Source: Candidatus Poribacteria bacterium (lineage in GTDB: Bacteria > Poribacteria > WGA-4E > WGA-3G). Taken from it: a stretch of 52,251 bases of DNA. Location: positions 11,201-63,451 of the forward strand of contig JAGWBV010000007.1 in assembly GCA_021295715.1 (NCBI GenBank). The letters are read 5' to 3'. Positions within the stretch are counted from its first letter, which is position 1; each line of letters opens with the position of its first letter. The notes beneath the pieces were generated by a model. It ran no database searches. It saw only the letters and a program-made list of their open reading frames with translations, and was not told the DNA's origin. The position numbers and the translations under genes were made by a program. Positions 29,766 to 31,759 of the stretch are shown here, in pieces.

Positions 29766-30716
29766 ATGAAGTACATAAAAATTCCCGGAGTCAGTAAAGA
29801 CATCTCACACCTGATTCTGGGGACCATGATATTTTCGCCTGTAAAATTCGACTATAGCACCGAAATGATCGACGCTTTCTTTGAAGCCGGTGGAAATTCC
29901 CTTGACACAGCCCACGGTTATGGTGGCGGCGATAGTGAAATGCTTATCGGTCTCTGGATGCGGCAACGCGGTAACCGAGACGAAGTCTTCCTCATTGACA
30001 AAGGTGGGCATCCACAAGGCAGAGTACCGCGTCCACGTCTCTCCCCCGAAGAACTCAAAAGCGATCTTGATGAAAGTCTCATCCGACTTCACACCGATTA
30101 TATCGACCTCTACATGCTCCATCGTGACGACCCTGTGATTCCCGTTGAAACCATCATTGATTACCTGAACGACGAGATCGGCGCAGGACGCATCCGCGCG
30201 GCTGCTGCTTCTAATTGGGAACCTCAGCGCATTATTGATGCCAACACCTATGCCGCCGAAAATGGATTGGCAGGCTTCGTCTCTTGCAGCAATAACATTA
30301 GTCTCGCTGTGCCGATGGAACCGATGTGGGGTGGTTGTGTCTGTGTCGACGCTGCGGCTCGCGAATGGCATAAAGAGAGTCAGTTCCCTCTGATGCCTTG
30401 GTCTTCACAAGCACGAGGTTTCTTTAGCGGTGCGTTTACACCGGAGAACCGCGAAAACGGAGATATGGTGCGCGTCTATTACAACGACGGCAATTTTGAA
30501 AGACTCGCACGCGCAAAGAAATTAGGTGACAAATACGGCTATTCGGCGATTCAGGTCTCCCTCGCATACTGCTTGAATATTCCATTTCCGGTTTTTCCAA
30601 TTATTGGACCCGTAGCCTTAAGTGAGATGGATTCCTCACTCGGTGCGATGGCACTTGAACTTTCCGATGCTGAAATGGAATGGCTTAACCTGGAAACGGA
30701 TGGAAATCCTCTATGA
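29766..30716 (+). CDS. Aldo/keto reductase 1
   Basis: The 316-residue TIM-barrel oxidoreductase has the catalytic tetrad in SLDTAHGYGGGDSE (Asp, Tyr), FLIDKGG (Lys) and YMLHRDDP (His), and a nucleotide-phosphate site in SAIQVSLAYCL and IIGPVALSEMDSSL. It probably reduces a sugar-derived or other carbonyl with NADPH in the cytoplasm. TGA 30714-30716 overlaps an ATG at 30713, joining it to the damaged beta-barrel gene. The AKR at 49810 is only distantly similar. Confidence 0.92.
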   Translation: MKYIKIPGVSKDISHLILGTMIFSPVKFDYSTEMIDAFFEAGGNSLDTAHGYGGGDSEMLIGLWMRQRGNRDEVFLIDKGGHPQGRVPRPRLSPEELKSDLDESLIRLHTDYIDLYMLHRDDPVIPVETIIDYLNDEIGAGRIRAAAASNWEPQRIIDANTYAAENGLAGFVSCSNNISLAVPMEPMWGGCVCVDAAAREWHKESQFPLMPWSSQARGFFSGAFTPENRENGDMVRVYYNDGNFERLARAKKLGDKYGYSAIQVSLAYCLNIPFPVFPIIGPVALSEMDSSLGAMALELSDAEMEWLNLETDGNPL

Positions 30717-31759
30717 TCGCAAGATTTGTTTTCCTACTACTCTGCTTCCAATTCATCTTTTCACCTCTCGGTTTTGTCCAAGAAAGCTGAGGCGCGTGAA
30801 GCAATCCTGCAATTCCACGCGGCTGGATTGGTGAAGTCAGTCTGACTTCAGAAGAGATGAAGCGATTTCAGGGTAATGTCAGTATGATGCGATGGTTCGA
30901 TGCACAGGGTGGACACGTAGAAACAGAAGGCGTCTCACCAGATGGAAACGTCATAGGCGTGCCGCTCCACCGACACCACGTTAAACTAAACATATTTCGC
31001 GTTGATATTGGCTTGAAGTATCAGATCGGTTCCCAATGGATGCTTGAAGCGAATGTCCCCTACGAGACCAAAGCCCAAGAGGCAACTGTCGAACAGATTG
31101 ATCCCGTCACACCCGAACAATGGGACGCGATTATACGTAATGGAAACAACCATCACCGAAACGAAACCTATACCGGACTCGCCGATGCCGATGTTCTATT
31201 GACGCATCATGTTCATGGGATCTTTAAGGAGGACGACTTTTTTACAGGACGGGTCGGAACCACAATTCCATTTGGTAAGACTGAAGAAGATCCATGGAAG
31301 TTAGGAGCTGCAGGACTCGAGCATCTCCATATACAGTTCGGCACCGGCACCTTCAACCCGATTGTAGACTTGCATTACAGCCTTCCGCTCTACGAAGGGT
31401 TGGGTGCGAACGCCAGCATCCGCGGGAAATTGCCGTTCTATGAAAACAGCAAAACCTACCGCGCCTCTCGGGAACTTACCTACACAGGTGGTCTGAATTA
31501 TCGTTTCAGTGACTGGCTCTCGCTACAAGCAGGCTACCTCGGCTTTTATCAGTCCTATGCGTATTGGGCAAGAGAACTGGATATCAATACCGGCCTCCTT
31601 TTCAGCATGGCCTCCGTTGGTGCCTCAATTGCAACGCCCTATAACATCCCTGTGTCTGTCGCATTGATGTTGCCCTTGAGTCAAAAGACACTTTATGAAG
31701 ATAGCGATGCTTTTGAATTCGGTCCCTTGGTATCGTTAACAGTTTTATATTCATTTTAA
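30713..31759 (+). pseudogene. Outer-membrane beta-barrel-like protein with two in-frame TGA codons
   Basis: ATG 30713 overlaps the preceding stop as ATGA and encodes MIARFVFLLLCFQFIFSPLG, a good signal peptide. The same frame then meets TGA at 30788-30790 and 30797-30799, and continues open for 319 codons (SNPAIPRGWIGEVSLTSEEM onward) to TAA 31759. An internal ATG at 30857 could start a signal-less form. The body is rich in alternating beta segments (LNIFRVDIGLKYQIGSQWML, GRVGTTIPFGKT, GGLNYRFSDWLSLQAGYLG) and ends VSLTVLYSF with a terminal Phe, as outer-membrane barrels do. It resembles the family of proteins first noted in phenol-degradation pathways. Two point mutations, a miscalled segment, or readthrough could each explain the stops. 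Confidence 0.65.

Follow-up and report, generated by a model that had tools for sequence, protein, structure and literature searches.

A Putative Outer-Membrane Selenoprotein Family of Poribacteria with Two In-Frame TGA Codons and a Candidate Tandem-Hairpin SECIS

Introduction

Prokaryotic selenoprotein families have been collected in Table 1 of a 2026 review, whose text counts 119 of them (PMC13188914). Among the entries of that table are outer-membrane barrels that are predicted to hold selenocysteine (Sec), namely the MtrB/PioB GSU2204-family outer-membrane selenoprotein (NF041027) and the FCYXU-type TonB-dependent receptor (NF049945). Two Sec residues in a U-x-x-U arrangement are entered for a metal-binding family (NF041115), the FmdB-family, and some Prx-like proteins. 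In the SO_0444 family Cu/Zn efflux transporter (NF033936), Sec occurs in a metal-transport setting. The legend of Figure 2 of the same review describes the bSECIS model as a loop of 3-9 nt on a stem of 4-16 bp at a spacing of 16-37 nt, with a G within the first two loop positions. According to the review, a subset of putative elements fails this model. Cys/Sec pairs are treated there as a standard criterion for selenoproteins (PMC13188914).

Here a gene with two in-frame TGA codons is described from the MAG (G000) of a sponge symbiont, a Candidatus Poribacteria bacterium; the MAG has 5.1 Mb, 175 contigs, and 96.04% completeness. The window is the whole stretch of 52,251 nucleotides that was analyzed. 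The gene is very probably intact and would encode a secreted outer-membrane barrel protein with two selenocysteines, SelB recoding both codons by means of a tandem-hairpin SECIS. This reading draws on the conservation of both TGAs, a Cys/TGA exchange at the first site, a conserved RNA structure, the presence of selB and selD in the MAG and of selA and tRNA-Sec in most of the sampled genomes of the phylum, and a predicted barrel fold.

Gene Organization

The features of the locus are collected in Table 1. The frame that begins with the ATG at 30713 reads MIARFVFLLLCFQFIFSPLGFVQES, TGA, G-A, TGA, and SNPAIPRGW..., and it closes at TAA 31757-31759. The original prediction had placed the signal peptide, both TGAs, and the barrel in one frame with no indel, and reading of the frame agrees with this. 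Its choice of 30713 as the start also holds, as this ATG overlaps the reductase stop (30714-30716) in the form ATGA. A reductase-like ORF, judged by eye, was found upstream of the barrel in seven of the eight loci listed. The mechanical ORF call begins at 30857 and omits the first 48 codons of the gene, and so conceals both the signal peptide and the putative functional motif.

Table 1. Positions of the features in the window
Feature	Position	Strand	Basis or remark
Aldo/keto reductase	29766..30716	+	Pfam Aldo_ket_red, E 2.6e-47
Start codon and putative signal peptide MIARFVFLLLCFQFIFSPLGFVQES, 25 codons	30713..30787	+	Frame reading; leader in 39/39 relatives
TGA, putative Sec site 1 (Cys in paralogs)	30788..30790	+	TGA in 39/39 relatives
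TGA, putative Sec site 2	30797..30799	+	TGA in 39/39 relatives and in every paralog with the motif read
Predicted outer-membrane beta-barrel, 319 codons	30800..31756	+	12 long strands in the model; His groups HRH, HHR, HLH
Hairpin 1, candidate SECIS	30804..30828	+	Core 30806-30810 with 30822-30826; other pairings in some relatives
Hairpin 2, candidate SECIS	30832..30850	+	Stem of 7-8 bp; 3-nt loop GUC at 30840-30842

Conservation and Selection

Relatives were sought in genome_contigs with a query that begins after the second TGA, and loci matching query residues 1-319 were counted. This search found 39 loci at 57-88% identity, all from Candidatus or uncultured Poribacteria. Both codons are TGA in each of the 39. 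The double TGA is also present in chromosome records of 5.7-6.7 Mb (OX639992.1, OX638352.1, and OX639973.1). The motif in the relatives is Q-x-[SG]-U-G-A-U-S-N-P. When 23 of the 40 proteins were aligned, the window's included, the block Q-x-x-U-G-A-U-S-N-P was invariant, and the His residues in H-R-H, H-H-R, and H-L-H were invariant or nearly so. One of the 39 relatives (L044) clusters in the tree with a second copy of genus g2, apart from the nearest kin of the window gene. Not all of the relatives need therefore be strict orthologs.

The barrel was compared with that of the closest relative (L009), which gave a dN of 0.057, a dS of 0.577, and a dN/dS of 0.098. For the 25 codons of the leader the values were 0.109, 0.528, and 0.206. 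Judged by these substitution rates, the barrel is under purifying selection. UGA is kept among homologs, and there is coding potential on both sides of it.

These results bear on whether the gene could be a pseudogene by ordinary decay, a product of sequencing error, or a barrel that starts at Met 30857. All that speaks for decay or error is the raw frame. Against it stand the purifying selection and the two TGAs, whose presence in all 39 relatives rules out chance and sequencing error. The later start was likewise tried and ruled out. Met 30857 is present in just 18 of the 39 relatives, including those in which it is shifted by a 2-codon insert, and absent in 21, whereas an in-frame ATG and a hydrophobic leader (judged by eye) precede the TGAs in every one. 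The idea raised with the original prediction, that orthologs might start at this methionine with no signal peptide, is refuted by the same counts. Taken together, a decayed, misread, or later-starting gene is scarcely credible.

The original prediction had left a choice between two substitutions and readthrough. The need for substitutions is not borne out, because all 39 relatives have the two TGAs in common. Readthrough came close, and the evidence favors selenocysteine recoding over leaky readthrough or decay. As to the residues that replace the stops, none were found in the 39 relatives; Cys is found at site 1 in a clade of paralogs.

A genome-wide reassignment of UGA was also considered, and no support for it was found. 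The reductase ends in TGA, and so do two of the 39 relatives of the gene (the others end in TAG, 24, or TAA, 13). In 38 of the 39, the barrel contains no additional TGA. Such a reassignment has a negligible probability, and the original prediction had likewise argued against a general code change.

The one relative with a further TGA (L031, 4001-4096) carries it in frame at barrel codon 31, a position that is Trp in relatives. We regard this third TGA as damage to that genome, and the locus was retained in the counts of 39. In the profile search described below, one row of genome G022 shows three TGAs.

Distribution and Paralogs

A profile of 23 proteins was searched over 84 Poribacteria genomes. 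Matches were found in 66 genomes and in 8 of 21 genera. They comprise all 58 genomes of the window's family and 8 of the 14 in the rest of its order; no member was found by this profile in the 12 genomes outside the order. Six genomes of the same order have no match (G005, G064, G065, G016, G029, and G054). The selA cut-off is exceeded in at least four of these (G005, G016, G029, and G054), so that Sec synthesis is kept there for other proteins. Weak matches within the phylum in G028:C131 and G019:C86 were rejected as other barrel-like ORFs that do not have the motif. The match in G073:C23 breaks off where its contig ends, with no motif visible, and only one copy was seen in G074. Copies in pieces (G056, G043:C2:632519-633145, and G011:C1:1198170-1198804) were not counted as intact.

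A copy with a single TGA was found in 36 of the 38 genomes of the window's genus, the window's own genome included. In all 36 of these paralogs, site 1 has a Cys codon (TGT or TGC), TGA stands at site 2, and the motif is Q-E-S-C-P-A-U-S-N-P. The paralog in the window's MAG (G000:C5:66550-67596, L120) has the motif CPAU. Genome G067 carries both forms, C-S-A-U (L124, with Cys at site 1) and U-G-A-U (L125). Site 2 is TGA in every copy in which the motif was read, although some of the scans required it by pattern. In genome_contigs of close relatives and in plasmids, no homolog with Cys at site 2 and no homolog outside Poribacteria was found. In the plasmid search the window protein had no match and the paralog had one at an E-value of 0.5.

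In a 32-row tree of part of the sequences, the Cys label at site 1 needs two changes, also when the starred branches alone are considered; the tree tool flags long branches where the group of L124 meets L133. By this tree, at least two exchanges between Cys and TGA seem to have taken place at site 1, in one direction or the other. The second exchange falls in a family other than that of the window. Cys is found in homologs at site 1, both in the 36 genus paralogs and in L124.

The exchange also bears on whether a near-cognate tRNA (for Trp, Arg, or Cys) could read UGA at this conserved site with no use of selenium. In favor of such a reading, readthrough is in general a process that structure downstream of a stop can promote. 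Besides TGA, however, only Cys occurs at site 1. Two TGAs only 9 nt apart would also be expected to multiply the loss of product, and the Sec machinery is present in most of the sampled relatives. Near-cognate decoding is thus quite improbable.

Downstream RNA Structure

Two hairpins downstream of the TGAs are common to 40 sequences. Hairpin 1 is formed by CCCGC and GCGGG (window 30806-30826), and in most sequences hairpin 2 is GAAGUCA-GUY-UGACUUC (window 30833-30849). The loop of hairpin 2 starts with G in all 40 rows. When the pairs were counted over 480 cells, 97.7% could pair, compared with 22-55% in controls slid by 1-3 columns. Three pairs are changed on both sides, a number reached in 1 of 500 shuffles; sequences that are related can, however, score above shuffles of this kind with no structure present. 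For further pair types the count is ordinary, being reached in 103 of 500 shuffles. Hairpin 2 recurs in the paralogs and in other families, where it has compensatory forms such as GAAGUUA/UAACUUC. Its pattern fits 39 of the 40 loci scanned in the paralog check, L177 being the exception. It was not seen in the divergent L133 (G066).

Codon usage points to the same region. The fraction of majority codons is 0.94 in hairpin 2 (4 codons) and 0.81 in 30800-30852 (12 codons), compared with 0.63 in the rest (140 codons). None of 20000 resamplings gave an excess as high, either for hairpin 2 or for 30800-30852. Synonymous variation is lowest at the hairpins: among 151 sliding windows, the six that rank highest begin at 30809-30833.

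Folding of 30800-30852 gave z-scores of -2.05 for the window, -5.05 for L010, -2.14 for L026, and -2.55 for L041. Hairpin 2 is present in all four folds. Hairpin 1 pairs otherwise in L041, and that of the window has a U-U mismatch. The stretch 30786-30840, which is cut through hairpin 2, gave a z-score of 0.01 and another structure.

Hairpin 2 agrees with the loop and stem terms of the bSECIS model. Its loop lies 40 nt past the second TGA and 49 nt past the first, outside the range of 16-37 nt, and the spacing is larger still in relatives with 3-6 nt inserted. Hairpin 1 stands at 11 and 20 nt from the TGAs, but it has an 11-nt loop. We infer that the tandem element acts like a bSECIS; it is not filed here as a standard one. 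We suggest that hairpin 1 may fold away part of the distance to hairpin 2.

Selenocysteine Machinery

The genes for Sec synthesis and insertion were looked for in the window's MAG. There, selB (349.6 bits) and selD (359.5 bits; G000:C29:59245-60168, L081) both score over their cut-offs. The selD gene has one in-frame TGA in a CAG-U-ASK segment and is itself a further selenoprotein candidate. Directly downstream of selB is a gene resembling tRNA-Sec, with TCA in the anticodon position, which scores 39.5 bits and is below the 47 of its family. This selC (G000:C54:31679-31784; L002 1501-1606) consists of the 5' part only and departs from its relatives after GGTGGGTTCG. Genomes G007 and G025 have the same order of selB, selC, and the next ORF, which we take to be a lipoyl synthase, but their tRNA gene is intact. 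A search that allowed up to 2 mismatches did not find the 3' part of the tRNA elsewhere in the window's MAG. The gene selA was not found in this assembly. When the selA region of G007 was compared, only a gene 1.4 kb from selA matched well (C18:55483-56805), and this match runs to the last base of the 56,805-base contig. An assembly gap may explain the absence, and the missing selA probably lies in it.

Across the phylum, the tRNA-Sec cut-off and the selA cut-off were each passed by 54 of 58 genomes. The 5' pattern of the tRNA is also absent in G033 and G048. Two equal tRNA-Sec matches were found in G040, and two in G037, each at the start of its contig.

The state of selC allows for another explanation, that the family is a selenoprotein elsewhere and that this strain has lost Sec decoding, so that its TGAs are stops and the gene is freshly dead. 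The lost 3' part of selC, in a flanking order that is kept from G007 and G025, its absence from the rest of the MAG, and the absence of selA from the assembly are all in line with such a loss. However, selA may lie in the gap, the frame of selB is open, and the only break in selD is its Sec codon. Both barrel paralogs are likewise open apart from their TGAs, and the low dN/dS of the barrel against L009 (about 0.10) also speaks against a loss. The break in selC is either a real deletion or a misassembly. A local misassembly is plausible because the MAG is in 175 contigs at 96% completeness. A loss in this strain is thus unlikely, and it is the reality of the selC break that decides whether the strain itself still decodes UGA.

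Protein Fold and Gene Neighborhood

The AlphaFold2 model is a barrel of 12 long strands with a mean pLDDT of 74.7. It has a helix at residues 2-15 in the leader, and residues 16-30, which bear the motif, have a pLDDT below 50. Foldseek placed FapF at the top (E 6.5e-11), with the COG4313 channel 4rl8 among the best matches. In VIA-align 4rl8 came first (Z 23.6, rmsd 2.6, 247 aligned residues), and FapF had a Z of 22. Many other barrels match too, autotransporters among them at Z 16-20. Barrel matches of the window protein in Pfam and NCBIfam are all sub-threshold. PF13557, which we presume to be linked to COG4313, matches 7 of the 23 members (best E 6.3e-5) and is not in the list of the window protein. 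A PDB sequence search gave a best E-value of 0.14, to unrelated enzymes.

The neighbors of the genes can indicate what the proteins are used for. In the window's MAG, the genes that follow the paralog encode a YHS protein, two OEPs, an adaptor, and a CusA/CzcA-family pump (G000:C5:63500-80500; L120 and L150). The adaptor has HlyD_D23 and four HMBD stretches, and the pump matches its family at 933.5 bits. In G067, the neighbors of the two-TGA copy are an M56/BlaI-like pair and a fusion of a YHS domain to an AhpC/TSA redoxin. This fusion is on the minus strand of G067:C18 (L151 7664-8413), next to a Penicillinase_R repressor and an M56 peptidase.

Because the paralogs adjoin CusBA-type efflux and YHS-domain genes, these neighborhoods suggest a soft-metal or redox role for the family. 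The window gene's own neighbors are not metal genes. It is flanked by the reductase on one side and a peptide-transporter binding protein on the other. A metal role would reach it by kinship only, and a redox link is equally open.

Proposed Function

Under the preferred reading, translation would begin at 30713 with the signal peptide. The two UGAs would then each receive Sec-tRNA-Sec from SelB that is bound to the tandem stem-loop behind them (30804-30850). The product would read ...QES-U-G-A-U-SNPAIPRG... and continue into a beta-barrel of about 12 strands in the outer membrane. Its U-x-x-U pair would sit on a flexible N-terminal segment right after the signal peptide. There it would most likely act as a very soft metal ligand or as a redox pair (a diselenide), and the protein probably has a role in handling copper-like or other soft metals.

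A more detailed version can be put forward tentatively, and we consider it possible but somewhat doubtful. In it, a single tandem SECIS serves both codons, its proximal hairpin bringing near the distal, reading hairpin, which lies past the usual spacing, and the two Sec residues, inserted three codons apart right behind the signal peptide, form a diselenide or selenolate metal clamp. This clamp would be displayed at an outer-membrane channel for the capture or export of soft metals. The family to which this version applies covers 66 of the 72 genomes that were searched in one Poribacteria order.

Comparison with Known Systems

The barrel shares its fold with the COG4313 channel 4rl8 of Pseudomonas putida, as far as the model goes, but at 11% identity, and fold by itself shows no kinship.

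None of the rows in Table 1 of the review fits the barrel by name and motif (PMC13188914). When 23 members were scanned against NCBIfam at E <= 1, no selenoprotein model was matched, and this includes NF041027, NF049945, NF033936, and the UxxU families. The two outer-membrane families differ from the poribacterial one in that each is entered in the table with one Sec and with another motif or none. The SO_0444 transporter belongs to another family and has a UxC motif. The UxxU proteins share the spacing of the two Sec residues, but here the motif is located between a signal peptide and a barrel; this comparison is by table entry.

A literature search found no paper that joins "selenoprotein" with "Poribacteria." We conclude that the barrel represents a putative selenoprotein family that is undescribed. 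Earlier predictions cover outer-membrane selenoproteins and, separately, UxxU proteins. The two combined, with the motif next to a signal peptide and with a tandem element, were not found in the literature examined. If the reading is true, a common selenoprotein family (66 of the 84 Poribacteria genomes searched) would be added to this symbiont phylum, and Sec would be placed on an outer-membrane barrel. With its two UGAs 9 nt apart, the gene would offer a natural experiment on the way in which neighboring sites are served by SelB and a SECIS. The Cys-Sec paralog in the same genome would provide a built-in comparison of UxxU with CxxU.
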